60,950 bases of DNA from a virus. The notes beneath the pieces were generated by a model. The model was not told where the DNA came from. It was given only the letters and a program-made list of their open reading frames with translations, and ran no database searches. The DNA is taken from positions 1-60,950 of the IMG/VR virus record IMGVR_UViG_3300017991_002817. The stretch is one strand, 5' to 3'. Position 1 is the first letter of the stretch. Every line of letters begins with the position of its first letter. The position numbers were made by a program, and so were the translations under genes. Positions 20,459-38,819 of the stretch are shown here, piece by piece.

Positions 20459-21193
20459 GTGGGATACTTGCGAATGCGTAGAGTTGGGTCTCGGATAATT
20501 CCCAGGAAGGCAAGTCCATGTAAGGCAAAGCCCATTACGGACCTTCTGAATTGTTCCTCCTGGGAAGGAAAGAGATGTTTCATTCTTTGTGGCGGCCCCA
20601 GCTTAGAAAATTTTGATTTCCTAACCATACAGGATGAAAAAACTATTGGAATAAATAAAGCGTTTATACAGTATAATACCAACATCCTGTATGGAATGGA
20701 CCAAAGATTCTATGATAGTATTTCTTTTTCAAATCGAGCCGATCAGGAAAATGCTGCGGTCCATAACTCCTGGCTCCGGTATTCCGGGATAAAGGTATTT
20801 CTTCGGACTTCATATAAAACAAAATTTGATCCTAGTGTCTATTTTGTCAATGGATTAGAAAAGAAGCAGATAAGTTTGGATATTTCTCGGGGAATTTATG
20901 GTGGAGGAAACTCTGGATTTGGTGGGATGATGCTCGCCATTTCTTTAGGCTGTAAAGAAATCTACATGCTGGGTTTAGATCTAAAAGTGGATGAGAAGAG
21001 GAAGAGGACTCATTTCCACGAAGGATATAAGAACCAGAGAATAGAAAATGTTATAAAGGTTTTAAAGGATTTTAAAAAGGAATTTGAGTCTTTTGCTTCG
21101 TCGATTAAGGAATTAGGAATTTCTGTGATTAATTTGAATCCAGACAGTTCCTTAGAATGTTTTCCAAAAAAGGATATCCGAGAGATCCTGTAG
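20459..21193 (+). CDS. DUF115 / MptE-like protein 1
   Basis: 244 aa from a GTG at 20459 (an ATG at 20474 is an alternative; neither has a strong ribosome site). Near residue 42 it has FILCGGPSLENFDF, then TIGINKAF, YGMDQRFYD, GGGNSGFGGMMLAISLGCKEIYMLGLDL. The GGPSL loop with a later GL-D is the mark of DUF115/MptE-like proteins, which include motility-accessory (Maf) glycosyl-transfer factors and sialyltransferase-like enzymes. First gene of the glycan island; probably moves a sugar or activates one. Substrate unknown. Confidence 0.6.
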   Translation: MGYLRMRRVGSRIIPRKASPCKAKPITDLLNCSSWEGKRCFILCGGPSLENFDFLTIQDEKTIGINKAFIQYNTNILYGMDQRFYDSISFSNRADQENAAVHNSWLRYSGIKVFLRTSYKTKFDPSVYFVNGLEKKQISLDISRGIYGGGNSGFGGMMLAISLGCKEIYMLGLDLKVDEKRKRTHFHEGYKNQRIENVIKVLKDFKKEFESFASSIKELGISVINLNPDSSLECFPKKDIREIL

Positions 21194-21213
21194 ATTCTTT
21201 CTGGAGAAGAAGA

Positions 21214-22008
21214 ATGAATGGGAGAAGTGTTTTTGTTGTGGGAGGCGGACCGTCTCTTTCCGGGTTCGATTTCCAATCTCTTCACGGGAAGAATACCATC
21301 GCAGTCAATTCTTCGATCTTCTTCGTCCCCAATCCCGATTATTTCATCACGATGGATTTTACCTGGTTTGGTAAAAATGGAATCCAGTATGATTCATCAA
21401 CAGAAGGAAAACAAAAGATTTATAGATCAACAAAGGCCAAGAAGTTTTTTGTTGTGGCATATGATAAGGGACGCTTTGTGCATACACCTAATGGTGTTTT
21501 AGACACAAGGTTCGATTTAAATTATGACCTAAGAGTGGTAGATGAGGTCATATATTCATCTTCCTATGGTGGGGTAGGTAGCTCTCTTCAAGATTTTCAT
21601 TGTGGAAGTGATAGCGGATATAGTGGGATTCAATTGGCTGTAGCCTTAGGATACTCAAAGATTTACCTCCTGGGTATGGATTTTGATATAACCTCATCAA
21701 CTAATAGAACTTCTGCTCCAACTATAATTCCACCCTCTGAAGTAACCCTTTTAAGGTCCTCCAGATCCAAAAAGATTCAGGTATCGAAAATTTCTGTCCG
21801 GAAGAGTTCCCATTTCTTCAAAAAGATGAGTTCTTCCGAATTGAAAAATTTCAAGAAAAAATTAGATGAGTATCTGACACCATATCCCAGTTTGTTCAAG
21901 GAGATTTCCGAAAAGACCTCCAGCCAGATTTTTAGTTGTTCTCCAAATAGTAGATTAAATCAATATATAGATTATGTTCCTTTGGGGAAGGCCATAAAGA
22001 ATGATTGA
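21214..22008 (+). CDS. DUF115 / MptE-like protein 2
   Basis: 264 aa from the ATG at 21214, which has GGAGAAGAAGA upstream; an in-frame ATG at 21157 would overlap the previous gene by 37 bases without a ribosome site. Paralogue of the preceding protein: VFVVGGGPSLSGFDF near residue 8, NTIAVNSSIFF, DYFITMDFTW, SDSGYSGIQLAVALGYSKIYLLGMDFD. The C-terminal 80 residues are basic and helical. Same proposed role in glycan synthesis; the pair may act on different acceptors. Confidence 0.6.
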   Translation: MNGRSVFVVGGGPSLSGFDFQSLHGKNTIAVNSSIFFVPNPDYFITMDFTWFGKNGIQYDSSTEGKQKIYRSTKAKKFFVVAYDKGRFVHTPNGVLDTRFDLNYDLRVVDEVIYSSSYGGVGSSLQDFHCGSDSGYSGIQLAVALGYSKIYLLGMDFDITSSTNRTSAPTIIPPSEVTLLRSSRSKKIQVSKISVRKSSHFFKKMSSSELKNFKKKLDEYLTPYPSLFKEISEKTSSQIFSCSPNSRLNQYIDYVPLGKAIKND

Positions 22009-22789
22009 AACAAGTATAGTGATGACATATTACAATCGGACCAGGCAACTGAGAAACTCCCTCAAATCCATCCGGAGACAAAAAAAGGACCTTCAGAATA
22101 CTGAGATTATAATTGTAGATGACGCCAGTGATGAAGAAAAAAGAGCCCGATTGATTACGAAGGATTTTAAGGAACTTAACATCCAAATTGTAGAGGTTAA
22201 GAAGGAAGAGAAGTATTGGATAAATCCGTGTGTTCCTTATAATATGGGGTTTAGGCGGGCCAAAGGAAAGATTATTGTGATTCAGAATCCCGAATGTGTT
22301 CATTTTGGAAGGATTCTTGGATATGCTAAGGAGAACATTGGTGAAGGAAAGTATTTAAGCTTTCCCTGTTATTATGTGACGAAAGAACAATTTCAAAGAT
22401 TTTGTAAATGGAAAGATCAACCGGATGATCTTTTTCTAAAGAAGGTTTCCAGAATAATTGATCCATTAGATAATCGACAATGGTATAATCATTCTTCTCT
22501 TCGTCCAACTGGCTATCATTTTACTTCAGTGATATTGAAAAAGGATTTGGACAGAATTGGTGGGGGCTTCAACGAAGATTTTGCCACGGGCTATTGTTTT
22601 GATGACGATGAGTTCTTATTCAGATTAGATCAAGGAGGCATGGATCGTCAAATTACACCTCATCAAATGGGTTTTGTAATACATCAGTGGCATCCCAAAA
22701 GCTCCATCTACGTTGGGAGGTGTCCGGAATGGTACCGAAATAGGGCCCTTCTGGAAAAGATAACAGGAAAGGAGTATAAAGAAATATGA
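22001..22789 (+). CDS. Family 2-type glycosyltransferase
   Basis: 262 aa. N-terminal GT-A fold: SIVMTYYNRTRQLRNSLKSI, IIIVDDASD near 38, then NMGFRRAKGKIIVIQNPE, where GT2 enzymes have their metal-binding loop. The C-terminal GGFNEDFATGYCFDDDEFLFRL resembles the galactosyltransferase C-terminal module with an acidic pair for the catalytic base. Overlaps the DUF115 gene by 8 bases and the next gene by 4. Sugar donor not predictable. Confidence 0.75.
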   Translation: MIETSIVMTYYNRTRQLRNSLKSIRRQKKDLQNTEIIIVDDASDEEKRARLITKDFKELNIQIVEVKKEEKYWINPCVPYNMGFRRAKGKIIVIQNPECVHFGRILGYAKENIGEGKYLSFPCYYVTKEQFQRFCKWKDQPDDLFLKKVSRIIDPLDNRQWYNHSSLRPTGYHFTSVILKKDLDRIGGGFNEDFATGYCFDDDEFLFRLDQGGMDRQITPHQMGFVIHQWHPKSSIYVGRCPEWYRNRALLEKITGKEYKEI

Positions 22790-24132
22790 TAACTGTATTT
22801 ACTTCTTGTCACAACCAAGAAAAGTATCTTGCTAAGGCCATTCATAGCGTTCTGACTCAAACAGAAAAGGATTTTGAATACAGGATATATGACGATGGCT
22901 CTACCGACGGAACTTGGGATATAATTCAAACATATGCAAAGAAGGATAAAAGGATTATAGCAAAGAAATTGGAGAAGACAGACAACGTCGGTGTAGTGGC
23001 TAAGATGTGTATGGAGGAGATGAAAGGTAAAGTCTGGACCTGGTGCCCTAGTGACGATATTTGGCTTCCCACTCTTCTTGAAACCAAAAAGAAATTCTCG
23101 GAAAACCATCCAAATTGTATTCTCTATTCTGATTGGATCGTCATTGACCAAAACGGGAAGGAGTTGATGGAGAAACATCCTCGACTTTCCCCAAAAGAAT
23201 TTAGTGAAGAAATCTGGACTGGTTGCCCAATTGGATTTACAGGAATCTGGATTCCAAAAACCGTAATTGATAGGGTTGGCCCTTTCCCCACCCATTTGAA
23301 GTATAGTGAAGATTTTTATTGGATGCTTAAGGCTAACGTCCACAAGATTCCCTTCGTTGGGGTTAGGAAGACCCTATATAAGAAGAGGAAGCATACTAAT
23401 ACTCTTACCCATAAAAATTTACAATCAATTCTAGATCAGATTCCTGTCCTCGTTTCCGACATAAGGACGTATCAATCAACTTTACAGGAATCCGTTGAGG
23501 ATAGTTTTGGGTTGACGGATTGGTGGCGATTTCATCATTCTCATGAAGATACCCAATATCTAACTGGCTCAGATCCAGAATATGTTTGGAACTGTTTGAA
23601 TATTAAAGATAAGATAAAGAAGTCTCGGTCTATTCTGGACATAGGGGTAGGATCTGGAAGTGAAGTAAAGGCACTCTCTAGGTTGGGTAAGGAGGTTTCC
23701 TGCTTAGATACTTGTCCTGAAGCGATCTCTAAAGTTTCTGATTTCATTGAATTCGGATACATATTTGGAGAATGCAAACTTCCGGAAAATTGTTTCGATT
23801 TGGCTATATCTCATCTGGTAGCCCAACATATGTCGGATACTAATTTAAAGAGGCAACTAAGAGAGGTTGTTCAGAGCCTATCCTCGGATGGTGTTTTGGC
23901 AATACAAATCGCAAATTCTATCCAGAATCAGCAGGGGGAAGTCGATTGGAAAAAGAACCAGAGCCTTCTTAATCAAAAGAAGGGTGGGGTTCTTAGAACG
24001 ATAGAACAATTTGAGGAACTAATTAAGGAGTTCGGTGAGATCGTTTGGGTATCCGATCCTAAATATTTGGGAGAGAGTGGGAATATTATTTTTCACTACC
24101 TTCACATCAGGAAGAAGCAAAATGCGGCCTAG
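22786..24132 (+). CDS. Fused glycosyltransferase (GT2) and SAM methyltransferase
   Basis: 448 aa; GGAGTATAAAGAAAT before the ATG. Residues 1-215 are a GT2 domain: TVFTSCHNQEKYLAKAIHSVL, YDDGSTDGTWD (donor-binding), WCPSDDIWLP (the metal-binding acidic pair) and YSEDFYWML (catalytic acid region). Residues about 280-440 are a class I methyltransferase: SILDIGVGSGSE near 283, LDTCPEAI, and FDLAISHLVAQHMSD. One polypeptide could add a sugar and methylate it, or methylate the acceptor end. Both halves look intact. Confidence 0.8.
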   Translation: MITVFTSCHNQEKYLAKAIHSVLTQTEKDFEYRIYDDGSTDGTWDIIQTYAKKDKRIIAKKLEKTDNVGVVAKMCMEEMKGKVWTWCPSDDIWLPTLLETKKKFSENHPNCILYSDWIVIDQNGKELMEKHPRLSPKEFSEEIWTGCPIGFTGIWIPKTVIDRVGPFPTHLKYSEDFYWMLKANVHKIPFVGVRKTLYKKRKHTNTLTHKNLQSILDQIPVLVSDIRTYQSTLQESVEDSFGLTDWWRFHHSHEDTQYLTGSDPEYVWNCLNIKDKIKKSRSILDIGVGSGSEVKALSRLGKEVSCLDTCPEAISKVSDFIEFGYIFGECKLPENCFDLAISHLVAQHMSDTNLKRQLREVVQSLSSDGVLAIQIANSIQNQQGEVDWKKNQSLLNQKKGGVLRTIEQFEELIKEFGEIVWVSDPKYLGESGNIIFHYLHIRKKQNAA

Positions 24133-24658
24133 TACCAAATTCATCCAAGATACTTTTGGTAAACTCCCATTGGTTGGGGCAGAGATTGGGGTCTTAGCTG
24201 GAACGAATGCTAAGAGTCTGTTAGAAAATTTGAATATAAAATGGCTCATACTTGTCGATCTTTGGGATTCATATATTCAAGAAGGAAAAGAGATTAAGGA
24301 AACTACCCAGTATTATGATAAGGTAACTGAAACTTTTGGTCATCTTTCTAAGGTTTGCATACTTAAAGAGCGTTCGGTTGCTGCCTCCAAAAGGATTGAT
24401 GAACACTCCTTAAATTTTGTTTATATAGATGCATGCCACGATTACCTATCCGTTAAAGAAGATATTGATTGTTGGTTTCCAAAGGTGAAATCCGGTGGTG
24501 TCATTTCAGGACATGATTATGGGACAAAGAGATGGCCTGGGGTAACAAAGGCAGTAGATGAATTTGTTAAATCTAAATTACTTTTCTTGAATACGGGAAA
24601 AATAGTTCGAAGAAGATCCCCCAAAGCGGTATCCGATTGGTTTATTGTTAAGGAGTAA
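24122..24658 (+). CDS. SAM-dependent methyltransferase (class I)
   Basis: 178 aa from the ATG at 24122, overlapping the preceding gene by 11 bases, with AGGAAGAAGCAAA upstream; the longer frame to 24035 has no ribosome site. Landmarks: VGAEIGVLAGTNAKSLLEN (SAM-binding glycine loop), ILVDLWDSY, NFVYIDACHDYLSVKEDIDCWFPKVKSGGVISGHDYG. The last part, IDACHDY...GG-ISGHDY, is typical of the methyltransferase-24 group that acts on sugars in surface-glycan clusters. Probably O-methylates a sugar. Confidence 0.75.
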   Translation: MRPSTKFIQDTFGKLPLVGAEIGVLAGTNAKSLLENLNIKWLILVDLWDSYIQEGKEIKETTQYYDKVTETFGHLSKVCILKERSVAASKRIDEHSLNFVYIDACHDYLSVKEDIDCWFPKVKSGGVISGHDYGTKRWPGVTKAVDEFVKSKLLFLNTGKIVRRRSPKAVSDWFIVKE

Positions 24659-24661
24659 AAG

Positions 24662-25822
24662 ATGAAGAAATTGATTATTTGCTATGGTCCGGAAAGAAGT
24701 GGGAAAACCTCTTTTTCGAAAACAAAAACCAATTATACTCGCATTAGATTCGACGACTACTGGAGGCAACGGGACTATTCCCCAGCAACAAAATCTCACG
24801 GATTTGATTATGTTAAACTGCAATCAGATTTGATTTCTACCTTTTCGAAATCCGAAAAAGTTATTTTAGATGGTTGGATGAGATGGGACGAACTTCACTC
24901 GGTTCTTAAGGAAGTCCAAAAAGTAACCTCGGCAGAGATCTGCATTTATTTGATTGTAACGAATGTGGTCGCTATGGCCGATCGAAGAATTCAGGAAATT
25001 GAGAAAAAGAAACTTGTGGTTACCCCGAGACAAAATTATGAAATGTATAAGGTAGCCTTAAAATATGTCCAAAACTTCCCTTACCCCTCTTTTGTCCTGA
25101 ATAATAATAATCTGGACTATTCACGAATATCTTCTACGATTACCCCAGAAGACTTTGAAAAATTATGTTATCCCCAAATTAATTTTGAAAAGGCGGATAA
25201 ATTCATTTCTGGTTTGGGTCAATTATATCATGGAATAGAAGTAGGAACCCGGAAGTATGGAAACTTTTCTCATTGTGAAGAAGTCTGGAAACATATTTCC
25301 AGTAAGGTAAATTTTGTGGGTAAGTCTGTTTTGGATTTGGGATGCTACTATGGGTTCTTTACCTTTCGAGCAGAAGAAAATATGGCAAGAAAATCTGTAG
25401 GGTATGATATAGGTGGATTGGTAAATAGCTGTAATCGGATTGCACGATACAAAAATTCTAAATCCAAATTTGAGAATAAAGATCTAGATACTTTGTCAAT
25501 AAAAGAGAAGTGGGACACCATCTTGGTTATGAATGTTCTTCACCATCTTAATGCTCCTCTTCAGGTATTGAATGAGGTGTTTAAGTCTGCTAATAAATCT
25601 GTTGTTGTTGGAATAGATATACCGGAATCTCCAGATCTTAGATCCAGAAGAGTGGTAGAGGTTGGCGGGTTTCTAAAAAGAGCACAGAAGGGGAGAGGGG
25701 TCCCATTGTGGATATCTGTTCCAGTTCTTGAGGAGTTTGCGAAAGAGTATGGGTTTAAGCGGGTAGCTCATTTTAATAATTCTAGAAAAGCAAATAGAAA
25801 GCTTTTTATCTATTCCAAATAA
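24662..25822 (+). CDS. Fused P-loop kinase and SAM methyltransferase
   Basis: 386 aa; AGGAGTAAAAG precedes the ATG. Residues 1-170: a small P-loop kinase with Walker A GPERSGKTS at 9-17, FDDYWRQRD (an acceptor-type acidic loop) and VILDGWMRWDEL. Residues about 180-386: a methyltransferase with VLDLGCYYGFFTF near 223, GYDIGG, LDTLSIKEKWDTILVMNVLHHL and a closing FIYSK. The second half resembles methyltransferases with a DxGCxxGFF loop. The fusion suggests phosphorylation and methylation of one substrate; capping a growing glycan by phosphate and methyl is known in some O-antigens, which makes a chain-terminator role a reasonable inference. Confidence 0.7.
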   Translation: MKKLIICYGPERSGKTSFSKTKTNYTRIRFDDYWRQRDYSPATKSHGFDYVKLQSDLISTFSKSEKVILDGWMRWDELHSVLKEVQKVTSAEICIYLIVTNVVAMADRRIQEIEKKKLVVTPRQNYEMYKVALKYVQNFPYPSFVLNNNNLDYSRISSTITPEDFEKLCYPQINFEKADKFISGLGQLYHGIEVGTRKYGNFSHCEEVWKHISSKVNFVGKSVLDLGCYYGFFTFRAEENMARKSVGYDIGGLVNSCNRIARYKNSKSKFENKDLDTLSIKEKWDTILVMNVLHHLNAPLQVLNEVFKSANKSVVVGIDIPESPDLRSRRVVEVGGFLKRAQKGRGVPLWISVPVLEEFAKEYGFKRVAHFNNSRKANRKLFIYSK

Positions 25823-25832
25823 GGATATAAAA

Positions 25833-26522
25833 GTGAATTGCGAGAATGCCGACAGTTGTTTAGTTTTAAGTATTCCTCGATCAGGAACTCATGTTGTAAT
25901 GCAGATACTAAATTCTTTAGGAATGAAAGAGTATCCGGCATTGGCTAAGCAGGATGACTTCTGGACAAAATGGGATACCCATATACAAACTATTCCAGAT
26001 AAAGGATACTTCTGTTTTGGAAACCACGCTTATCCGGGCAAAGCTCGCCGATTGGTTGAGGCGAATCGGAAAGGGGTGTTCATCTCCAGAGATCCAAGGG
26101 ACTGGGCAGTGTCTTATGGATACCACTTTAGGTTGACAAGTGGATTCAAACATATTTATGAGCAGTTTGGAATCAATAGACTTTTTGAGGAGTCCATTAA
26201 GAGGTTTCCAGGACAGTTAAAAAGACTGAAGTGGAGAGATTATCCTAACGTCTATTCGACAACCTTTGAGAGACTATTCCAGAATTCATTTGAAGAATTT
26301 ACCAATATCTGCAACTTCCTGGGGATCAAAATAACTAAGAAGGAAATTAGAAGAAAGATAAAAGAACTAAACTCGTCTTCTCCAAAATACAAGAAAAATT
26401 TTAGGAGGGGGGTTGTCGGTGATTGGCGGAATTATTTGCTTCCTGAGCATATGGAACTATGTAAAAAACTTCTAGGACAGCATTTAATTGACGAAGGATA
26501 CGAGAAAGATTTGGATTGGTGA
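25833..26522 (+). CDS. PAPS-dependent sulfotransferase 1
   Basis: 229 aa from a GTG with AAGGATATAAAA upstream. All three landmarks of cytosolic-type sulfotransferases are visible: the 5'-phosphosulfate loop SIPRSGTH at 13-20, the 3'-phosphate site SRDPRDWAVSY near 85-95 (Arg and Ser in place), and the C-terminal GVVGDWRNYLLPEH near 193. Substrate is probably a hydroxyl or amino group on a sugar, given the neighbours. Adenosine 3'-phosphate 5'-phosphosulfate could come from the APS kinase encoded at 31120-31893. Confidence 0.85.
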   Translation: MNCENADSCLVLSIPRSGTHVVMQILNSLGMKEYPALAKQDDFWTKWDTHIQTIPDKGYFCFGNHAYPGKARRLVEANRKGVFISRDPRDWAVSYGYHFRLTSGFKHIYEQFGINRLFEESIKRFPGQLKRLKWRDYPNVYSTTFERLFQNSFEEFTNICNFLGIKITKKEIRRKIKELNSSSPKYKKNFRRGVVGDWRNYLLPEHMELCKKLLGQHLIDEGYEKDLDW

Positions 26523-26531
26523 GGCGGTAAG

Positions 26532-27302
26532 ATGCAGATTTTGATTACTGGAATAGGTAGGACGGGAACTACTGGGCTGTTTTCTAAGGTAAAGAATTCA
26601 TTACCTGAGAATAACCAATTTCTCCATGAGCCAAAAGTTGTGAATTCCTTAGGTAAAAATTGTCTGGTGAAGTTGAATATCTTCCGAGTTATGGAGAACC
26701 CCATACTCCTTACAATTCCAAAGAAGATCCTTCTTATTCGGGATCAGAGGGATAGAATAATCAGTTCCCTTCTATTTGGACTTTTTCAGACTTGGGAAGG
26801 AAAAGAAAAAAGATTATTTAAGGTGTTAGATCTGTTAAAGCAAAAGGAAAGTTCTCCAGAGTCTCTTTCTGTATTGAAACTTCATGAGCATCTGCATCCG
26901 AATTGGGATTTAAGGAATCAGGCAAAGAAATATTGTAAAGGACTTATAAAATTTAGTAGGGAACAGAAAGTTCTTGTATATTACTATGAAGAGTTTGTGA
27001 AACAGAATTTTAAGCCATTGGAGGATTATTTAGGTCTTCCTCTTTCAGGATCCTCTGATCTAGGAAAAAGGAAATATGTCCTTCGAACCGGTTCATCTGG
27101 AGATTGGGGAAATTGGTTCTGTAAGGAGGATATTGACTTCTTTCGTCCTTTGCTTCAAAAGTACATGGAAATTTTTGGATATGAGGATAATTGGAATCTA
27201 AAATCTCCCCAAAGAATTCCACCGGAGGTCGCTTCGGATTACGTCCTTAAAATAGTAAATGATTTAAGATTGAGAAATGGTTTGGAGCCGGTAGATGTCT
27301 AA
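26532..27302 (+). CDS. PAPS-dependent sulfotransferase 2
   Basis: 256 aa; AGGCGGTAAG before the ATG. Sulfotransferase layout: ITGIGRTGTTGLF at 4-16, LLIRDQRDRIISSLL near 67-80, and RTGSSGDWGNWFCKED near 185. It is distant from the preceding sulfotransferase and belongs to the more divergent P-loop group found in polysaccharide clusters. The first loop reads GRTGTTG rather than PRSGTH, so activity as sulfotransferase is likely but less sure than for its neighbour. Overlaps the next gene by 8 bases. Confidence 0.75.
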   Translation: MQILITGIGRTGTTGLFSKVKNSLPENNQFLHEPKVVNSLGKNCLVKLNIFRVMENPILLTIPKKILLIRDQRDRIISSLLFGLFQTWEGKEKRLFKVLDLLKQKESSPESLSVLKLHEHLHPNWDLRNQAKKYCKGLIKFSREQKVLVYYYEEFVKQNFKPLEDYLGLPLSGSSDLGKRKYVLRTGSSGDWGNWFCKEDIDFFRPLLQKYMEIFGYEDNWNLKSPQRIPPEVASDYVLKIVNDLRLRNGLEPVDV

Positions 27303-27996
27303 AAGTAAGACTCTAGTAATGGGAAGTTGCAGACTTACTGAGCCATTTAAGGATGATCCTAACTTCATTCTCTATCCTGGAGGGCATGCTCACTGTACCA
27401 GCGCCTTCCTTCAAGCTCTCGACGTTATGGCAGGAAAGGTGGTTGTACCCAAGAAAATAGAGGAATTTGCTTTTCGGGGTTGGGGTTCTAACAATCCGGA
27501 TAAGGAAGTGGACTTATCTAAAGTGTCGAATGTCGTAATGGAGCTTTGTTCATTTAAATGCGTGAAGTATGGCGACCTAATTTTAAGCCATGTATGTGCA
27601 ACATCAAATGGTCGAAAGGGGCTTCCAAAGGCAAAAACGGTAAAAGTCCATATTGAAGCCCCAGATGAAATCCGATCTAATCTATACAAACTAAAAAAGA
27701 GGTTAAAAGGAAAAACTCTAATATTTGTTCTCAACAACAATATAACTGGTGTAATGCTAAGGTACAAGTTGGGCTATATCGTTTCGGATTGGTGCATAAA
27801 AAATAAGGTGACTTTTTTCGATCCAACGTCATTAATAGCGACCTATGGGATACCCTTATGTTTTCCCACAAGTGATTCGCATCCAAAGAAATATCAATTT
27901 AATTCTACCACGTATGATCCGTATCATTACACGGAGTTTATGAAGAGGATTATTCATGAGCACATTCAAACTCTCATTGGACCGAGTGAAGAATAA
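27295..27996 (+). CDS. SGNH/WcbI-like protein
   Basis: 233 aa; GGAGCCGGTAG upstream. It opens with LVMGSCRLTEPF near 6-17 and HAHCTSAF near 30, a GSC-type loop in place of the GDS nucleophile loop; LIFVLNNN near 140 could be the third block and YDPYHYTEF near 210 supplies a D-x-x-H pair. Such GSCR-type proteins occur in capsule clusters and are thought to add or remove acyl groups. No other family fits better. Function tentative. Confidence 0.45.
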   Translation: MSKSKTLVMGSCRLTEPFKDDPNFILYPGGHAHCTSAFLQALDVMAGKVVVPKKIEEFAFRGWGSNNPDKEVDLSKVSNVVMELCSFKCVKYGDLILSHVCATSNGRKGLPKAKTVKVHIEAPDEIRSNLYKLKKRLKGKTLIFVLNNNITGVMLRYKLGYIVSDWCIKNKVTFFDPTSLIATYGIPLCFPTSDSHPKKYQFNSTTYDPYHYTEFMKRIIHEHIQTLIGPSEE

Positions 27997-28867
27997 ATCA
28001 CAAAAGATACCGAAAGTTATGAACTTCTTCTGGTCCGGGGAAACCCTTTCTTGGATGAGGTATATGACTCTTTACTCCTTCCGGAAATTGAATCCAGATT
28101 GGGAAATTGTTTTGCATGTCTTTCCATATTCCAGACAGAAAGAGAAACCCTGGCCGGATAAGAATTGTCAGGATTTCTTTAACTTTCCCTCTTCTGACTA
28201 TCTAAGTAAGGTACCCGAATTGGGTGTGCGGATCTCTCAGATTCCCCTAAATAAAAAATATTCTAAGTTGGATCCGGTGAGGTTAAGTGATGTCTTTCGT
28301 TGGTATCTTTTATATACGAATGGTGGATTTTACTCAGACATGGATATTCTATATGTAAAACCCATGGAGAGTTTTTATAATAGAATATCTAAATATGCAA
28401 CTGTCTTGGCCTACACTACAAAACCGACTCATTACTTTTCGATTGGTTTTATTGGGTCTACTCAAGGGAATCCATTCTTTAGAGATGTATATAAGATTGC
28501 GACTAATCGACTAAACAGAAAAGGATGCTATCAGACTGCAGGATCCGTCGCAATCTATGAATTGATAGGGAAGGCAAAAAATTGGAATGAGATCGTCCCC
28601 CACACGAATCAATTAGAATTATACTACCAGAAATATGGAACGGACATTTACTGGGATTTTCAGAGAATAGTCTATCCCTATTCATATAGGCAGATACCTG
28701 AAATATTTTTTAATCCCAAATCTACTCTACCGGAAGAGAGTATTGGGCTTCACTGGTTTGCTGGTGCTGAGATGACTCAGGAGTTTAATCGCAACCTATC
28801 AAAAAACAATTATTTCGAATACAATAATTTATTCTGTAATCTGGTTAAGAGAGTTCTTGGAGAATAG
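27956..28867 (+). CDS. GT32-like glycosyltransferase, paralogue 1
   Basis: 303 aa. Overlaps the previous gene by 41 bases. Landmarks of the DXD sugar-binding region family: IPKVMNFFWSGETLSWMRYMTL near 19-40, FRKLNPDWEI, RLSDVFRWYLLYTNGG and FYSDMDILYVKP (the DxD) near 130, then SIGFIGSTQGNPFF and a late GLHWFAG. It transfers a sugar from a nucleotide donor. Its twin follows immediately; the two share a 56-bp perfect DNA repeat. Confidence 0.8.
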   Translation: MSTFKLSLDRVKNKSQKIPKVMNFFWSGETLSWMRYMTLYSFRKLNPDWEIVLHVFPYSRQKEKPWPDKNCQDFFNFPSSDYLSKVPELGVRISQIPLNKKYSKLDPVRLSDVFRWYLLYTNGGFYSDMDILYVKPMESFYNRISKYATVLAYTTKPTHYFSIGFIGSTQGNPFFRDVYKIATNRLNRKGCYQTAGSVAIYELIGKAKNWNEIVPHTNQLELYYQKYGTDIYWDFQRIVYPYSYRQIPEIFFNPKSTLPEESIGLHWFAGAEMTQEFNRNLSKNNYFEYNNLFCNLVKRVLGE

Positions 28868-28970
28868 CTATGATACCGAAGGTTATGAAATTCTTTTGGG
28901 GAAATGAAAAATTATCTTGGATGAGGTATATGACTCTTTACTCCTTCCGGAAATTGAATCCAGATTGGGA
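28049..28970 (+). repeat. 56-bp perfect direct repeat in the two GT32 genes
   Basis: Bases 28049-28104 and 28915-28970 are identical over 56 bases, while the sequence on either side diverges at once. The repeated block encodes WMRYMTLYSFRKLNPDW in both proteins. Perfect identity inside otherwise diverged copies points to gene conversion, or to a shared segment ready for recombination that would fuse the two genes. Confidence 0.85.
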
Positions 28971-29769
28971 GATGGAATTACATTTATGTCCTCCTAGCAC
29001 AATAAAGTATAAAACCTGGTTGGATGGGGTACAACAGGATTTCTTCAATTTCTCAGGGAAGGATTTTACAGGTAAACTTAACTCTTTGGATATTGAACTT
29101 AAAGAGTGGTCTCTTTTCCACAAGAATGGGAAGAGTATGCAAAATTGGATGGGTCCTTCCCATAAAAGTAACTTCTTTAAGTGGGGGGAGATGGCCACAA
29201 ATGGTGGATTTTATTCTGATTTAGACATCCTATATACAAAACCCTTGGAAGAATACTATGAAAAGGTAAAAGAGATGGATACCATCTGCTGTTATCATCA
29301 TGATTACTTTTCCATTGGGTTTTTAGGGTCTTCGGGAAATAATCCATTCTTTCAGGATATCTACGATTTCTGTTTCCAGAGATTTAATATTAAAGAGTAT
29401 CAATCGGCTGGAGTCCAAACTGTATATACTTTTCTTAGGAAAGAAACAGAGATTCCTAATCCTGTTCCCAATTCAAAGATTAACTTTTGGAAGATTATCG
29501 AAGAAAAGTATCCAGAACTGATTTTCTACAATAACCCAATGACTTTTGTTTACCCTTGGAAGTTTAATGAGATGGAGGAAGTCTTTTTAAAATTCCACGA
29601 TGATCTACCTGAAGATTGTGTGGGAATACATTGGTATGCCGGCGATAAGATAGCACAAAAATATAACAATAAATTGACTCAAGGAAATTACAAAAAATTC
29701 AAAAATACATTTAGCTTCTATTTGGAGAAACTTTTACCTTCGAAAACTATTTTGGGGAAGAAGAAATGA
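28870..29769 (+). CDS. GT32-like glycosyltransferase, paralogue 2
   Basis: 299 aa. Tandem duplicate of the preceding gene: IPKVMKFFWGNEKLSWMRYMTL, FRKLNPDWEM, FKWGEMATNGGFYSDLDILYTKP (DxD near 118), SIGFLGSSGNNPFF and GIHWYAGD. The middle loops differ (HKNGKSMQNWMGPSHKSN is unique here), so donor or acceptor may differ. Overlaps the 2-epimerase gene by 4 bases. Confidence 0.8.
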   Translation: MIPKVMKFFWGNEKLSWMRYMTLYSFRKLNPDWEMELHLCPPSTIKYKTWLDGVQQDFFNFSGKDFTGKLNSLDIELKEWSLFHKNGKSMQNWMGPSHKSNFFKWGEMATNGGFYSDLDILYTKPLEEYYEKVKEMDTICCYHHDYFSIGFLGSSGNNPFFQDIYDFCFQRFNIKEYQSAGVQTVYTFLRKETEIPNPVPNSKINFWKIIEEKYPELIFYNNPMTFVYPWKFNEMEEVFLKFHDDLPEDCVGIHWYAGDKIAQKYNNKLTQGNYKKFKNTFSFYLEKLLPSKTILGKKK

Positions 29770-30878
29770 AATTAATGACCATTTTAGGAACTCGACCTGA
29801 TTTAATTAAGATGTCAAGGGTTCTTCCCGCCTTGGATACCCATTTTGAGCATCTCTTTGTCCACACTGGACAGAATTATGACTATGAGCTTCATGGAATA
29901 TTTTTCGATCAAATGGGAATACGAGCCCCAGATATTTTTATGGGATGTGCGAAAGGAACCCCAGCGGATGCCGTTTCGGATATTATTTTGAAATCAGATC
30001 AGATATACGAAGAACACAAACCGGATGCTGTATTGTTTTATGGGGACACGAATTCTACGTTGGCCGTATATCCAGCAAAAAGAAGAAAAATACCCATTTT
30101 TCATATGGAAGCAGGAAACCGAAGTTTCAATGCTTTAGTTCCTGAGGAAACAAACCGTAAAATTATTGATCATTTGTCCGATATAAATATGGTCAATTCG
30201 GAGAATGCCCGTAGATATCTAATTAAGGAAGGTCTTCAGGAAGATCGAATAATAAAGACTGGATCTCCTATGTTTGAGGTTCTTGAGTATTATTCGGAAG
30301 ACATTAAAAATTCTCCAGTTCTAAAAAATCTTAATTTATGCTCTAAAAAATATTTTGTGATTAGTATGCATCGAGAGGCGAATGTTAACGATGATAAACA
30401 ATTGAAAGATTGGTTGGTATCTTTCAATAGGGTTGCACAGGAATTTGGTTATCCAATCTTCTTTTCCTGTCATCCTAGAACTAAAAAGATTTTGGAAAAA
30501 TCCAAAAATTATTCTTTGGTGGACCAGATACATATTATGCCCCCCTTAGGATTTTTCGATTACTGCTGCCTCCAAAAAAATGCCGCTTGTACCATTTCTG
30601 ATAGCGGGACTATAACTGAGGAGGCATCTCTATTATCCTTTCCAGCGGTAACCATTCGAAAAGCTCATGAGCGTCCAGAAGGGATGGATGAGGGTGCCGT
30701 CGCTATGTGTGGAAACCCAAAAGATTTGGTTGATTCTATTAAATTTAAGATAAACTCTACTAAGGAATCCAGGGTAGTTTCTGACTACGACGTTCCACAG
30801 GTATCTGGAAAAGTTGTGAATACTATCTTCAGTTATACTGATTATATTAATCGCTTAGTTTGGCGAAAACATATATAA
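29766..30878 (+). CDS. UDP-N-acetylhexosamine 2-epimerase (FnlC/WbjD/WecB family)
   Basis: 370 aa, normal family length. Landmarks: ILGTRPDLIKMSRVLPAL, HTGQNYDYEL, FYGDTNSTLAVYPAKRRKIPIFHMEAGNR, VPEETNRKIIDHLSDINM, KTGSPMFEV, SMHREANV, CHPRTKKIL, PLGFFDYCCLQKNA and SDSGTITEEA with KAHERPEGMDEGAV. The GNRSFN, PLGF-DY and HERPEGMDE features are closer to the UDP-L-FucNAc branch (FnlC/WbjD/CapG) than to plain WecB. GTRPD replaces the usual GTRPE. With the SDR genes at 31883 and 32842 it could complete an L-FucNAc-type route. Confidence 0.85.
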   Translation: MKLMTILGTRPDLIKMSRVLPALDTHFEHLFVHTGQNYDYELHGIFFDQMGIRAPDIFMGCAKGTPADAVSDIILKSDQIYEEHKPDAVLFYGDTNSTLAVYPAKRRKIPIFHMEAGNRSFNALVPEETNRKIIDHLSDINMVNSENARRYLIKEGLQEDRIIKTGSPMFEVLEYYSEDIKNSPVLKNLNLCSKKYFVISMHREANVNDDKQLKDWLVSFNRVAQEFGYPIFFSCHPRTKKILEKSKNYSLVDQIHIMPPLGFFDYCCLQKNAACTISDSGTITEEASLLSFPAVTIRKAHERPEGMDEGAVAMCGNPKDLVDSIKFKINSTKESRVVSDYDVPQVSGKVVNTIFSYTDYINRLVWRKHI

Positions 30879-30899
30879 GATTTAAAGGAATACTTTAGG

Positions 30900-31127
30900 A
30901 TGTCCTTAAGAAAGATTAATCCCGGGGTTCTAATACTCCAGGGAATTCTATACCGGCTGCATATCATAGTTTGCCAAAGTATTTTCTTTTATCTTCTAAC
31001 GGGGAAATGGAAATGGGCAATTGGCATATCTTCTTTATGGAGCATGGTAAATACATTTCTGTATTACAACTTCCACTATTGGTACTCCAGATTTTTTAAA
31101 TTGGGAAAGGAGAAAGAAAGTGAATAG
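30900..31127 (+). CDS. Small membrane protein, DUF2061-like
   Basis: 75 aa; AAGGAATACTTTAGG before the ATG. Two hydrophobic segments with RLHIIVCQSIFFYLLTGKWKWAIG, then TFLYYNFHYWYSRF, matching the spacing of DUF2061 proteins (R..H, TG.W..A, YY.HE..W). Such proteins are often encoded beside APS kinase and sulfotransferase genes; here the APS kinase gene overlaps its 3' end by 8 bases. A role in sulfate or glycan handling at the membrane is an inference from that pairing. Confidence 0.6.
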   Translation: MSLRKINPGVLILQGILYRLHIIVCQSIFFYLLTGKWKWAIGISSLWSMVNTFLYYNFHYWYSRFFKLGKEKESE

Positions 31128-31893
31128 AATTTATTGGTTAACTGGAACTTCTGGAGCAGGTAAAACTACTTTAGCTCGACACATACAAAAGAGTTGGCCT
31201 TGTGTCATTCTTGATGGGGATGAGATGAGAGATAGTATTTCTCTGGGGGCTGGTTTTTCTCGAGAGGATAGGGAAGAACATAATTTACGGGTAGCCCGTC
31301 TGGCGAAGGAATTAGTAAAGCAGATGAATGTTCTCGTCACCGTTATCGCTCCTATGGAAGAAACAAGGAAGAAGATAAGTGAAATATGTAGTCCAACTTG
31401 GATATATGTTTGCAATAAGAGACTGGAGGAGACTCATCGGGAAGGACATTTTTATGAGCGTCCTGACCCATTTGATGTTCCTTTTGTGATTCGAACGGAT
31501 TGTCAATCGGAGAGACTATCAGTTTTAGGATTACTGGAAATTATAAAGGATTCGGATGAGCCAAGAAGCCTTCTTATCGGGCGATGGCAAACTATTCCAA
31601 TACATGCTGGACATATTGCTTTGATTAATAAGGTTCTGGAGACTCGACGAGTCTTAATTGGTATACGAGATACAAAAATTGGTTCAAATGATCCATACAC
31701 AGTAGAAGAAAGAATAGATGGAATTCGACAGATTTTTCCAGATGAAGATCAGGTTAAAATTATGGTTCTTCCTGATATAGCGGAAATATGCCATGGAAGA
31801 AAAGTTGGATGGGGGATTAGGGAAATACATCTGGACAAGGAGATAGAGTCCATTAGTGCTACGGAAATCAGGAGAAGGAAAAGTGGGAAATAG
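31120..31893 (+). CDS. APS kinase (CysC-like) fused to HxGH nucleotidyltransferase domain
   Basis: 257 aa from a GTG with AAGGAGAAAGAAA upstream. Residues 1-150: adenylylsulfate kinase, with Walker A GTSGAGKTT at 9-17, LDGDEMRDS at 31-39, GFSREDREEHNLRVARLAKEL and a PFVIRTD end. Residues about 150-257: a small nucleotidyltransferase with GRWQTIPIHAGHIALI (HxGH at 162-165), NDPYTVEERIDGI and ISATEIRRR near 245, the layout of NadM/cytidylyltransferase-like enzymes. The kinase half would make PAPS for the two sulfotransferases. The second half could be the ATP-sulfurylase step in another guise or act on a different substrate; unknown. Confidence 0.8.
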   Translation: MNRIYWLTGTSGAGKTTLARHIQKSWPCVILDGDEMRDSISLGAGFSREDREEHNLRVARLAKELVKQMNVLVTVIAPMEETRKKISEICSPTWIYVCNKRLEETHREGHFYERPDPFDVPFVIRTDCQSERLSVLGLLEIIKDSDEPRSLLIGRWQTIPIHAGHIALINKVLETRRVLIGIRDTKIGSNDPYTVEERIDGIRQIFPDEDQVKIMVLPDIAEICHGRKVGWGIREIHLDKEIESISATEIRRRKSGK

Positions 31894-32830
31894 GATTTTA
31901 ATTGTTGGAGGAGCCGGATACGTCGGAGGATTTCTAACCACCATTCTTAGTAAATATGGACATGATATCGCAGTATATGATAGTTTAGTTTATGAGAATC
32001 ATTATCTGAAGGATGTCCCCTTCATTCGGGGAGATGTTCGAGATCGAGAAAAATTATCAACAGTTCTTCCAGATTTTAATACCGTAATCTGGTTAGCAGC
32101 AGTGGTGGGAGATGGGGCTTGTGCTATTGATCCCTTCTTAACTCAATCAATTAATGAGGACTCGGTAAAGTGGTTAGTCCAAAATTATAAAGGAAAAATT
32201 GTCTTTACTTCCACGTGCTCCGTGTATGGAATCAATAATGATTTAATTGATGAGAATGCAGAGCCTAATCCCATATCTGTCTATGCTGAAACGAAGTTGG
32301 TCGCAGAGAAGTGTATTAGAGAAAATTCGGATAATCATTTGATTTTTCGTCTGGGGACTCTCTTTGGAACCGGTGATTCTTACAGCAGATTACGTCTGGA
32401 TCTGGTTGTTAACGTATTGTCTAAAAGGGCAGCGTGTGGAGAGGATTTGAGGGTATTTGGAGGAGACCAGTGGCGTCCATTGCTTCATGTTAGAGATGTC
32501 ACCTCTGCAATCCTCTGGGGACAATCTCATTCTATTACTGGACTTTACAATTTAGGTCTAAAAAATTATCGGATTCATGAAATTGCAGAAGAAATTCAGA
32601 AAGAAATCCCAGATATAAAAGTAGTATATGAAGAGTTAGCTTTTGAGGATCAGAGGAATTATCAAGTAACTTCGGATGCGTACCGAAAAAAGGGTTGGTT
32701 TCCTCAATATAATTTATTGGATGGGATACAACAAATTTATAGTTGCGTTAAGGAGGATAGGATTAAAGATTTGAATAGCCCTTTGTATTCGAACCAGTTC
32801 TATTTAGGGGCGAATTACAAACCGTTTTAG
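31883..32830 (+). CDS. NAD-dependent sugar-nucleotide epimerase/dehydratase (SDR)
   Basis: 315 aa from the GTG at 31883, with GGAGAAGGAAAA upstream; an in-frame ATG at 31856 would overlap the previous gene by 38 bases. Extended SDR: ILIVGGAGYVGGFL (nucleotide loop), GDVRDREKL, VIWLAAVVGDGACAIDP, FTSTCSVYG, and the catalytic SVYAETKLVAEK (YxxxK). The later FRLGTLFGTGDSYSRLRLDLVVN and RPLLHVRDV are typical of NDP-sugar epimerases. It could supply a 4-keto or epimerised sugar nucleotide for the neighbouring transferases. Confidence 0.8.
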   Translation: MGNRILIVGGAGYVGGFLTTILSKYGHDIAVYDSLVYENHYLKDVPFIRGDVRDREKLSTVLPDFNTVIWLAAVVGDGACAIDPFLTQSINEDSVKWLVQNYKGKIVFTSTCSVYGINNDLIDENAEPNPISVYAETKLVAEKCIRENSDNHLIFRLGTLFGTGDSYSRLRLDLVVNVLSKRAACGEDLRVFGGDQWRPLLHVRDVTSAILWGQSHSITGLYNLGLKNYRIHEIAEEIQKEIPDIKVVYEELAFEDQRNYQVTSDAYRKKGWFPQYNLLDGIQQIYSCVKEDRIKDLNSPLYSNQFYLGANYKPF

Positions 32831-32841
32831 GGGAAGAAGAA

Positions 32842-33669
32842 ATGAAAATTGCTGTTTTAGGAATTACTGGAATGCTGGGACATACCGTATTTAATGTCCT
32901 AAAAGAGAAGTATGGAAAAGAAAATGTTTTAGGATCTTCCCGAGGATTTAAGGAAGGTGAAATTCGGGATGGGGATTTCTTTCTGGATGCTCTAGAAAAA
33001 AGGATAAAAATTCCAGACAATTTGGACTATGTGATAAATTGCATTGGTGTGATTAAGCCGGTGGTAGAAAAGATTGGGGTAACCAAAACGTTACTGATCA
33101 ATTCAATCTTTCCCAGAAATCTGGCCGATTATTGTAAGAAGAAAAAGATTAGATTGATTCATATTACCACGGACTGCGTCTTTTCTGGAAAAACCGGGAA
33201 TTATACTGAGGACTCTCCCCATGACGTTACAGATGTATATGGACGAGGTAAGTCCTTGGGGGAACCAGAAAATTGCATGGTCCTTAGAACCAGCATTATT
33301 GGTGAAGAGAAGTATCATCAAATGAGTCTAGTTGAATGGGCAAAGTCTCAAAAAGGGAAAGAGGTAAATGGATATACGAACCATTTATGGAATGGGGTTA
33401 CTACTAAACAATACGCAGAGATATGTTCTCAGATTATAACTCAGGATTTGTATATGGAAGGAACTTTCCATATATTTTCTAGAACAGGTCTAGGAGATTG
33501 TGTTTCTAAGTCAGTTCTTCTGCATCTATTGAACACCAGATTTAATTTACAATTAAAGATAAAATCAGTAAATGCCCCTGATCGGGTAAAACGCACATTG
33601 TCCACGAAAAAGGAATTAAATGATTTATTGGATATTCCTTTTTTAGAAGATCAAATAATGGAGATGTGA
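32842..33669 (+). CDS. RmlD-like sugar-nucleotide reductase (SDR)
   Basis: 275 aa; GGGGAAGAAGAA before the ATG. ITGMLGHTVFNVL is the nucleotide loop, followed by DYVINCIGVIKP, NSIFPRNLADYC, HITTDCVFSGKTG, VYGRGKSLGE (the catalytic YxxxK read as Y-GRGK) and VLRTSIIGEE. The NCIGV and TTDCVFSG features match dTDP-4-dehydrorhamnose reductase-type and FnlB-type reductases. With the 2-epimerase and the SDR upstream it forms a small sugar-nucleotide pathway. Confidence 0.75.
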   Translation: MKIAVLGITGMLGHTVFNVLKEKYGKENVLGSSRGFKEGEIRDGDFFLDALEKRIKIPDNLDYVINCIGVIKPVVEKIGVTKTLLINSIFPRNLADYCKKKKIRLIHITTDCVFSGKTGNYTEDSPHDVTDVYGRGKSLGEPENCMVLRTSIIGEEKYHQMSLVEWAKSQKGKEVNGYTNHLWNGVTTKQYAEICSQIITQDLYMEGTFHIFSRTGLGDCVSKSVLLHLLNTRFNLQLKIKSVNAPDRVKRTLSTKKELNDLLDIPFLEDQIMEM

Positions 33670-34328
33670 TGGGCTGGTTGGTTTGTGCATATTTTACGAA
33701 GGATCCGATCTATTCTAAGCATGCTGCGAAGCTGATTGAATCCCTAAAAAGGTTCCAGATTCCATACGAATTGACTCCCATTGAACCCTTTAATGATTGG
33801 GACAAGGGAACCCATTACAAGGCACGCTTCCTGCAGGATATGTTAAAAAAGTATCCGGATCACTCTATAGTTTATGTCGATGCGGACGCCATCTTTTGCT
33901 GCTATCCAGATCTGTTCGATTCCCTGAATGAAAGAAAGGATGTTAACATTGGGGTACATGTTTTAGATCATTCCAAATACCGAAGAAAGAATTTGAATCC
34001 AGAGATGTTAAGCGGGACCATATTTTTACGGAATACCGGGGAAACCAGTATAATAGTTCAAGAATGGATCACCGAATTAGATCGATGTCCCACCATATGG
34101 GACCAGTCGGCTTTAAATGTTGTTTTGAAAAACCATTCTTTCTTTAATCTGCCCGAGGAGTATTGCACAATTTTTGATTATATGTCCTCAGTAAAAAATC
34201 CGGTCATAAAGCATTTTCAAGCTTCTAGGGAATTCAAAGCCCAACAAAGAAATCGAAGGTCTAAAAGATCTAGAGTAAGAGTCGTTAGAAATAATACCGT
34301 AGTTAAACTTGGAAGAAGTAAGAATTAG
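33669..34328 (+). CDS. GT8/GT77-like glycosyltransferase
   Basis: 219 aa from the ATG at 33669 (TGATG overlap with the previous stop, GGAG upstream); a GTG three bases earlier is also possible. Landmarks: HYKARFLQDMLKKYPDHSIVYVDADAIFCCYPDLFD (the metal-binding DAD near 72), MLSGTIFLRNT and WDQSALNVVL, the usual order in nucleotide-diphospho-sugar transferases of this type. The basic C-terminus (RNRRSKRSRVRVVR) is unusual and might hold it to membrane or nucleic acid. Last gene of the glycan island. Confidence 0.7.
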   Translation: MGWLVCAYFTKDPIYSKHAAKLIESLKRFQIPYELTPIEPFNDWDKGTHYKARFLQDMLKKYPDHSIVYVDADAIFCCYPDLFDSLNERKDVNIGVHVLDHSKYRRKNLNPEMLSGTIFLRNTGETSIIVQEWITELDRCPTIWDQSALNVVLKNHSFFNLPEEYCTIFDYMSSVKNPVIKHFQASREFKAQQRNRRSKRSRVRVVRNNTVVKLGRSKN

Positions 34329-34341
34329 GAGACCTCCCCCT

Positions 34342-35643: not shown

Positions 35644-35958
35644 TGAGTCTTCTTCTCCGGGGGCAGGGTGATTACTAAGGATGGTTGACTGCCCCTTTTT
35701 AAATACCTTCTCAAACTCTTTTTCGGTTAAATGAGTCCAGAATAGTATATCCCCTTTTTGAAATATCACAGCAAAAGTTCTTTCTTTCGGCCTACATGGA
35801 ATGGATTCACCGTTGGAAAAACCAAGAGCGAATCTTTTTAGTAAGCCTTTATTTGTAACTATAAAACGTTCTTGGTTCACCCGAATTCCCAAATCAAGGA
35901 GAGTTCCTCCTCTCCAAATTTCCCAGGTAAAATTACTCGGATGGATTTTCGGAATCAT
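35635..35958 (-). CDS. Hypothetical protein at operon junction
   Basis: 107 aa, ATG at 35958 (GAGAGCTTCAAA upstream) inside the last 26 bases of the radical SAM gene. A beta-rich N-terminus (FTWEIWRGGTLLDLGIRV) and a helical end (TEKEFEKVFKKGQ). Its 3' end overlaps the convergent plus-strand gene by 9 bases and encodes its C-terminus across the opposing terminator. No family recognised. Confidence 0.5.
   Translation of the reverse strand: MIPKIHPSNFTWEIWRGGTLLDLGIRVNQERFIVTNKGLLKRFALGFSNGESIPCRPKERTFAVIFQKGDILFWTHLTEKEFEKVFKKGQSTILSNHPAPGEEDSLI
35659..35700 (+). terminator. Rho-independent terminator after the tail/glycan operon
   Basis: GGGGCAG (35660-35666) pairs with CTGCCCC (35689-35695), a perfect 7-bp stem with a 22-base loop, followed by TTTTT at 35696-35700. 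It is 16 bases past the stop of the plus-strand operon and lies wholly inside the opposing minus-strand gene 35635-35958. Confidence 0.8.
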
Positions 35959-38520: not shown

Positions 38521-38819
38521 AGTTCCTCATCAAAAATGGGTGGAATCCGTCCATATACGTTGTTCTGTTCCTTCCAATCGTTGTATAATTCCATTGGAGT
38601 CTGTGGAATATCCTTTTTAAATAGCTCTGGTGGTTTCTTAATTTCAGGATCAAAACATATTCGAACATAATCGAATCCGCCGTCAATGGATACTTTTCCA
38701 CAAAAGCAGGTTCTGAGATCATGACAAGCCCGGCTAAAAATGGTATATCCACAAATAGGGCAAGTTATGGCATTTACTGTCGTCACAAGATTCCCCTTAA
38801 AGCTTGCTTGAAATTTCAT
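38517..38819 (-). CDS. Phage zinc-ribbon protein
   Basis: 100 aa from the ATG at 38819 (a TTG at 38822 is the alternative). The N-terminal part has CPICGYTIFSRACHDLRTCFCG, a four-cysteine ribbon with a conserved SRxxHD between, followed by SIDGGFDYVRICF. This CPxCG-SR-HD-C-CG-IDGG-DY-R pattern is widespread in large phages and has no known role. Overlaps the C-terminus of the haemagglutinin-like gene by 23 bases. Confidence 0.65.
   Translation of the reverse strand: MKFQASFKGNLVTTVNAITCPICGYTIFSRACHDLRTCFCGKVSIDGGFDYVRICFDPEIKKPPELFKKDIPQTPMELYNDWKEQNNVYGRIPPIFDEEL

Follow-up and report, generated by a model that had tools for sequence, protein, structure and literature searches.

A candidate sulfation module with a putative compact PAPS synthetase in a phage glycan island next to tail-fibre genes

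We analysed a linear virus record of 60,950 bases (IMG/VR record IMGVR_UViG_3300017991_002817, positions 1 to 60,950; hereafter the window) and describe here an island of glycan genes at 20459-34328, a contiguous plus-strand set that immediately follows the tail-fibre genes. Besides glycosyltransferases, methyltransferases and sugar-nucleotide enzymes, the island carries two candidate sulfotransferase genes (ST1 and ST2), a small membrane protein of the DUF2061 type, and a gene at 31120-31893 for a 257-residue two-domain protein, in which a domain resembling adenosine 5'-phosphosulfate (APS) kinase is followed by an HxGH adenylyltransferase domain of about 110 residues (hereafter the fusion). 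An earlier reading of this DNA, the initial annotation, had proposed a sulfation module within a glycan island joined to tail-fibre genes. Gene content and position supported this proposal, and each gene class that it listed was found, in one contiguous plus-strand series (Table 1). Loci and contigs are labelled L below, and genomes G.

Residues 1-145 of the fusion are predicted to adopt an APS kinase fold with a P-loop. The match to PF01583 (68 bits) was confined to the first two thirds of that model, and the predicted structure of the domain aligned with 2yvu at Z 19.3, with a root-mean-square deviation of 2.5 over 145 residues. The top structures were nearly all APS kinases, with gluconate kinase at Z 17.5 and adenylate kinase at Z 14-15. 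Among 36 relatives, R37, F46 and R51 were invariant or almost so; we take these residues to be the counterparts of the APS-binding residues in known APS kinases. In true APS kinases a lid stretch, KARxGxIxxFTGID, closes over APS; this stretch was absent from the window, phage and Patescibacteria members of the family and present in the haloarchaeal ones. Since the protein is a kinase-adenylyltransferase fusion, the sulfation set may start from sulfate instead of host APS.

The second domain, residues 146-257, is by its predicted model a member of the HxGH adenylyltransferase superfamily with the fold of phosphopantetheine adenylyltransferase (PPAT) and nicotinamide mononucleotide adenylyltransferase (NMNAT). 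It combines a Rossmann-like fold with the motifs GRxQPxHxGH and ISxTxxR, and the model matched PPAT and archaeal NMNAT at Z 10-11. Profile comparison to NMNAT gave E 2e-13, covering merely the first ~75 positions, and the NMNAT equivalog scores were missed (PRK01153, 30 against 127 bits; arch_NMN_Atrans, 21 against 181). The invariant positions fell in a GRxQ-HxGH motif (Gly-Arg, Gln and HxGH), a further Arg, GR-VG, and a closing ISxT-R motif. PF01747, the ATP sulfurylase catalytic domain, had no match in 31120-31893, and ATP sulfurylase was absent among the structures listed for the small domain, a result still compatible with a relation of fold.

On its profile score and motifs, ST1 is an ordinary PF00685 sulfotransferase, clearly of the type that uses 3'-phosphoadenosine 5'-phosphosulfate (PAPS): it scored 69.8 bits where the cut-off is 22, and it bears both the 5'-phosphosulfate-binding motif (5'-PSB; PRSGTH) and a C-terminal GDWRN motif. 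The second sulfotransferase of the initial annotation, ST2, is divergent. Pfam and NCBIfam scans of ST2 returned no match, the Pfam sulfotransferase cut-off not being reached, but ST2 has both motifs (Table 1) and aligned end to end with a phage sulfotransferase profile (hhalign probability 97%, E 1.2e-10, in a single comparison); its match to solved SULTs, at the GDWGN motif, was weak (E 0.03). ST2 is thus likely to be a distant member of the sulfotransferase superfamily. ST1 was unmatched in 50,697 phage records, and single-sequence scans of viral contigs with ST1 or ST2 gave zero relatives.

A single-sequence scan of viral contigs with the fusion gave no relatives either, and the fusion family was reached through alignment only. 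This yielded 478 matching stretches in viral contigs, of which 80 loci were kept for the viral-locus counts, as well as 14 cellular loci, most of them in Patescibacteria. The module is not peculiar to this phage: uncultured viruses commonly carry relatives. Only at 6 of the 80 loci were homologues of sheath, tube or baseplate genes recognised within reach, so we make no claim of a general tail linkage for the fusion. Both subfamily A (the close relatives) and subfamily B (a group with Casjensviridae-like kinases) occur in viral contigs, and five records of isolated phages hold the full fusion. The kinase domain comes first in phages, and the adenylyltransferase domain comes first in Patescibacteria and in L061; in L034, L035, L054 and several Patescibacteria genomes the two are encoded by separate adjacent genes. 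The two orders of fusion, together with these neighbouring genes, argue that the two domains act together.

The same kinase-adenylyltransferase fusion, ~30% identical, is found in Casjensviridae as a 'kinase' (PHROG 10255; Bhz60, Suzuki, AhaSv and Clavibacter phage 33). Two genes upstream of it, Bhz60 and AhaSv carry a Sulfotransfer_4-like gene. The Casjensviridae version differs in its more degenerate kinase motifs, and in Bhz60 the APS-kinase-type gene lies outside any glycan island, beside a NADAR-annotated gene (L002:5547-5990). A NADAR-like gene, recognised by eye, also stands beside a canonical APS kinase in a 462-kb uncultured phage (L024:4080-4556).

In 47 of the 80 viral loci the fusion has a DUF2061-type gene as its direct neighbour, which with few exceptions lies downstream of it. 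In the window the DUF2061-type gene lies upstream, and its end overlaps the beginning of the fusion gene. The window protein itself falls short of the PF09834 cut-off and is joined to the family through intermediate homologues, which qualifies the earlier naming of a DUF2061 protein. In one alphaproteobacterium a CysN-CysC-DUF2061 fusion with DUF2061 at the C-terminus was found (L130:1075-3627, genome G507). General clustering of DUF2061 with APS kinase in Alphaproteobacteria was considered and rejected: elsewhere in the group DUF2061 lies away from APS kinase, and hence G507 is the sole example in support. A search for DUF2061 between the haloarchaeal genes described below found none. Our guess is that DUF2061 serves sulfate handling at the membrane.

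In order to follow the association between the fusion and sulfotransferases, viral contigs were compared first. A PF13469 or PF00685 match at E 0.01 or better was present in 30 of 50 fusion-bearing viral contigs. In 11 of these 30 records the sulfotransferase gene lay within 1 kb of the fusion, whereas random placement would give 3.4 (P about 1e-4), an excess that survived removal of near-duplicates. Several adjoining sulfotransferase genes were confirmed singly by Pfam, and some fell below the cut-off. Sulfotransfer_3 was found in 21 of the 50 fusion contigs, compared with none of 24 fusion-free contigs of the window's phage group. A canonical-type APS kinase also stands beside an opposite-strand sulfotransferase-like gene in Pseudomonas phage Y4 (L025:2926-4817, an UNVERIFIED record).

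Among Patescibacteria, 9 of 380 genomes carry the fusion or its split form. Sulfotransfer_3 was present in four of these nine, compared with 20 of the 371 others (P 0.001); in three fusion genomes it was on the same contig, no more than ~7 kb from the fusion, and two further fusion genomes have adjoining PF03567-like genes below the Pfam cut-off. Patescibacteria genomes with a canonical APS kinase showed the same sulfotransferase enrichment (5 of 10). The canonical ATP sulfurylase PF01747 was absent from all nine fusion genomes of Patescibacteria and from seven of eight further fusion genomes, in a search confined to that family without the CysD/CysN type. By comparison, of nine genomes that matched canonical APS kinase, seven had PF01747. 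G398, a candidate fusion genome of this phylum, was rejected as such and moved to the canonical group, for its sulfotransferase has canonical CysD and CysNC as neighbours.

The strongest clue to the role of the fusion came from haloarchaea. In all six plasmid loci inspected, which come from six genera, a sulfotransferase lies just upstream of the fusion on the same strand, and it was Pfam-confirmed in both cases tested. The fusion is named cysC there (Haladaptatus, Halocatena, Natronococcus and others; NCBI name adenylyl-sulfate kinase), has the same two domains, and was 32% identical to the window protein end to end (E 1e-38, a single comparison). It differs in its full APS lid and in its plasmid operon, which includes YqcI/YcgG, and the three copies scored passed the ApsK cut-off (148-158 against 138.7 bits). 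The simplest product to expect of an adenylyltransferase that is joined to a true APS kinase is APS. The YqcI/YcgG gene follows the fusion directly in L167, L168, L169, L170 and L171, and in L166 it is on the opposite strand, upstream of the sulfotransferase, which suggests a further partner of the haloarchaeal fusion.

As shown in Table 1, the rest of the island matches most of what had been proposed. At least five glycosyltransferases had been claimed, and five were found (starting at 22001, 22786, 27956, 28870 and 33666), that at 28870 below its cut-off. The three methyltransferase domains lie in the C-terminal half of 22786, in 24035 and in the C-terminal half of 24662, and the two sugar-nucleotide short-chain dehydrogenases/reductases (SDRs) matched PF01370 (31856) and PF04321 (32842). 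The claim of an FnlC-like 2-epimerase was upheld as far as the 2-epimerase goes: like WecB/FnlC 2-epimerases, the gene passed the WecB equivalog cut-off (TIGR00236). In the FnlABC route to UDP-L-FucNAc a 4,6-dehydratase of the FnlA type stands beside FnlB and FnlC; none was recognised in the island, an FnlA-specific model not being among those run, and the SDR at 31856 scored highest as GalE (79 bits; PseB just 27 bits). A UDP-FucNAc pathway is thus not shown by the island genes. Near its start the gene at 27295-27996 bears a GSCR motif; judged by eye, it might encode an SGNH/GSCFA-like enzyme.

Table 1. Genes of the glycan island and its immediate neighbours in the window
Feature	Position	Strand	Evidence
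Tail-fibre-like/receptor-binding gene 1	18190..19317	+	PHROG virion structural protein, weak; kept in relatives L008, L010, L012, L013, L016; left neighbour of island
Tail-fibre-like gene 2, N-terminal half paralogous	19331..20455	+	Matches same relatives as 18190-19317
DUF115/MptE-like transferase, opens island	20459..21193	+	PF01973 E 2e-6 (below cut-off), phrog_4603 E 9e-25
DUF115/MptE-like transferase no. 2	21157..22008	+	Pfam/PHROG profiles, relatives' islands
Glycosyltransferase family 2	22001..22789	+	PF00535 49 bits
Glycosyltransferase family 2 + methyltransferase (C-terminal half) fusion	22786..24132	+	PF00535 74 bits, PF08241 42 bits
Methyltransferase (Methyltransf_24)	24035..24658	+	PF13578 48 bits
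P-loop (kinase-like) domain + methyltransferase fusion	24662..25822	+	Methyltransf_23 36 bits at 216-368; P-loop in residues 1-20
Sulfotransferase 1 (ST1)	25833..26522	+	PF00685 69.8 bits; SULT structures E 8e-6
Sulfotransferase 2 (ST2), divergent, likely	26532..27302	+	hhalign 97% to sulfotransferase profile; GRTGTT, GDWGN motifs
Island gene of no recognised family	27295..27996	+	No Pfam, PHROG or NCBIfam match
Glycosyltransferase, DXD region	27956..28867	+	PF04488 36.5 bits
Glycosyltransferase, DXD region, paralogue of 27956	28870..29769	+	PF04488 20.5 bits, below cut-off; 38% identical to L020:7812-8681
UDP-GlcNAc 2-epimerase, WecB type	29766..30878	+	PF02350 286 bits; TIGR00236 226.1 bits vs cut-off 210.15
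DUF2061 small membrane protein	30900..31127	+	PF09834 21.3 bits vs cut-off 23.1
APS-kinase-like domain, fusion residues 1-145	31120..31554	+	PF01583 68 bits; model Z 19.3 to APS kinase
HxGH adenylyltransferase domain, fusion residues 146-257	31555..31893	+	Model Z 10-11 to PPAT/archaeal NMNAT; profile to NMNAT E 2e-13
NAD-dependent sugar epimerase/dehydratase (SDR)	31856..32830	+	PF01370 103 bits; 59% identical to L020:14765-15706
RmlD-like sugar reductase (SDR)	32842..33669	+	PF04321 61 bits; 56% identical to L020:16169-16972
Nucleotide-diphospho-sugar transferase, closes island	33666..34328	+	PF03407 31.5 bits
DNA repair exonuclease	34309..35643	+	phrog_704 246 bits; right neighbour, outside island

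The island site was compared in related phages, which were collected via the baseplate gene. Two or three DUF115 genes directly follow the fibre genes, opening the island in every relative read, and variable glycosyltransferases and methyltransferases come after them; a homologue of 33666 stands at the far end where the contig extends so far (L017, L018, L020). In the related uncultured myoviruses L010, L012, L013, L016 and L165 the island occupies the same site, and those of L016 and L165 also share homologous glycosyltransferases, 2-epimerase and SDR with the window. The L016/L020 island has the 2-epimerase, both SDRs, a Gly_transf_sug gene, a family 2 glycosyltransferase and the P-loop/methyltransferase fusion (L020:8674-9789), and in place of DUF2061 and the kinase fusion it carries a stand-alone gene that looks, by eye, like a cytidylyltransferase. 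Of these five myoviruses, only L165 has the kinase-adenylyltransferase fusion and sulfotransferases. Among 25 contigs of the window's phage group, none has Sulfotransfer_3 and one (L150/L165) has the fusion, 55% identical, with two PF03567 sulfotransferases within the same island. As this one other contig with the fusion has sulfotransferases too, sulfation is optional cargo: the island site is conserved and the sulfation genes are variable.

Outside the island, the window holds genes of a contractile-phage tail at 0-20 kb (tail tube, baseplate wedge and fibre-like genes), a region of 20 kb without a near match in the 50,697 phage records. Beyond 36 kb the minus strand carries most of the genes, among them those for ribonucleotide reductase and a nucleotide kinase as well as SbcCD-like genes; no head genes were recognised within the window. 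Four further observations were made. A pair of overlapping tail-tube-family genes stands in tandem on the plus strand (67-579 and 561-1109), as it does in L006, L013 and L016. A radical SAM protein (PF04055) is encoded just right of the island at 35933-36910 (minus), with distant relatives within the L017 and L165 islands. The gene at 38797-39870 (minus) has a TPS secretion domain (PF05860, 59 bits), which is typical of two-partner-secreted bacterial adhesins, and a member of the queuosine salvage protein family (PF10343, 85 bits) lies at 48537-49430 (minus).

Taken together, we somewhat favour the view that the island holds a sulfation module, in which the fusion would act as a compact PAPS synthetase with DUF2061 as its partner and two sulfotransferases as its users. 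The small domain would probably take the place of ATP sulfurylase, joining sulfate to AMP from ATP to give APS, and the kinase domain would phosphorylate the 3'-OH of APS, so that the fusion product would be PAPS; the sulfation set would be complete only if the small domain has this activity. ST1 and ST2 would then transfer sulfate from PAPS onto a methylated sugar built by the glycosyltransferases, epimerase, SDRs and methyltransferases of the island. This sulfated glycan would be placed on a virion protein, most likely the tail fibre, rather than on the host surface.

Several findings weigh against this view. The window kinase lacks the lid and missed the ApsK equivalog cut-off (TIGR00455, NCBIfam apsK; 61.5 against 138.7 bits). 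The small domain has its closest relatives among the adenylyltransferases for NMN and phosphopantetheine rather than in ATP sulfurylase. Two residues are inserted in the HxGH motif of the window copy (GRWQ-TI-PIHAGH), a change seen in no aligned relative, so that this copy of the domain may be impaired. The search for ATP sulfurylase in the fusion genomes was confined to PF01747 and did not extend to the CysD/CysN type. Many sulfotransferase matches in viral contigs were weak, and many of these contigs are fragments. No sulfotransferase was detected in 4 of 16 close-subfamily and 16 of 34 other fusion records, nor a PF13469 sulfotransferase in DLP_6. The controls came from one phage group, scanned with PF13469 (25 contigs), with PF00685 (8 of those) and for motifs, and did not span every sulfotransferase family.

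Of the alternatives, the one that survives best accepts the module and changes its target: the sulfated product would sit on the host surface (e.g. for superinfection exclusion), or be a lipid or small molecule, rather than belong to the virion. Sugar-modifying phage genes often act on host lipopolysaccharide, and DUF2061 is a predicted membrane protein. We regard this as unlikely, though more credible than the other alternatives, since the island follows the fibre genes and DUF115-type transferases come first in every relative read; moreover, Pfam profile scans recognised no flippase, polymerase or lipid-carrier transferase among the island genes. The same three points make a virion protein the most likely target.

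Alternatively, the fusion may be a plain APS kinase working on host-made APS, with a small domain that is vestigial or otherwise employed. The initial annotation was right about the fold, and the sulfotransferases in the same island, as well as the insertion in the HxGH motif of the window, would agree with this. It had overlooked the C-terminal HxGH domain, and we set a plain APS kinase aside on account of this extra domain, the missed ApsK cut-off and the missing lid. Phages, Patescibacteria and haloarchaea all keep the small domain, in which catalytic-type residues are invariant, and the fusion-bearing Patescibacteria without PF01747 speak against dependence on such an enzyme; we consider this alternative improbable. 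Marginally less probable still is a fusion that makes some other 3'-phosphonucleotide or nucleotide-activated group, which the 'sulfotransferases' would move. CysC-like kinases with other substrates exist, as in Campylobacter, where one serves phosphoramidate, and both the missing lid and the NMNAT/PPAT-like small domain fit such a role. However, the haloarchaeal small domain is fused to a kinase above the ApsK equivalog cut-off, ST1 is an ordinary PF00685 member, and no glutamine-kinase or amidase partner was recognised among the island genes in Pfam profile scans. NAD salvage by a fusion of a ribosylnicotinamide-kinase-like domain with NMN adenylyltransferase is very improbable: the small domain is NMNAT-like and NADAR genes adjoin the kinase in Bhz60 (as annotated) and an APS kinase in LR756500 (by eye), but the kinase domain is closest to APS kinases, the NMNAT profile match is so short, the recurrent neighbours are sulfotransferases and DUF2061 rather than NAD genes, and even the Casjensviridae fusion lies near a sulfotransferase-like gene.

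A compact PAPS synthetase would have known counterparts. PAPSS1/2 and the bacterial Sat-CysC and CysN-CysC proteins likewise join an APS-kinase-like domain to an ATP-using domain, and that of human PAPSS also bears an HxGH motif, HNGH (PMC11697783). In contrast to PAPSS and Sat-CysC, the window protein has a small domain of ~110 residues that is not PF01747, has no APS lid, and is 257 residues long (human PAPSS1, 623). Phage sulfotransferases have been noted before, with their function called unclear (PMC10580990). The initial annotation knew of no description of such a sulfation set, and our literature search, with most subscription papers outside its scope, found neither such a fusion nor a phage sulfation module. 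Because the haloarchaeal fusion is already annotated as adenylyl-sulfate kinase, what is new is the second domain, the association with sulfotransferases and the phage context, and there is a fair chance that the module includes a new type of enzyme.

In summary, we give even odds to the wider proposal that a compact PAPS synthetase, with an NMNAT-like domain of ~110 residues in place of ATP sulfurylase, occurs in phages, Patescibacteria and haloarchaea alike, accompanied by sulfotransferases (and in phages by DUF2061), and that it lets phages sulfate glycans, probably those of their own virions. If true, it would be a second and far smaller route from sulfate to PAPS, in a pathway thought to require ATP sulfurylase, and could offer a handy small enzyme for PAPS production. 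It would also tie DUF2061 to sulfation. Importantly, a donor-making module beside the sulfotransferases of phages would give those enzymes a purpose, the making of sulfated glycans during infection.

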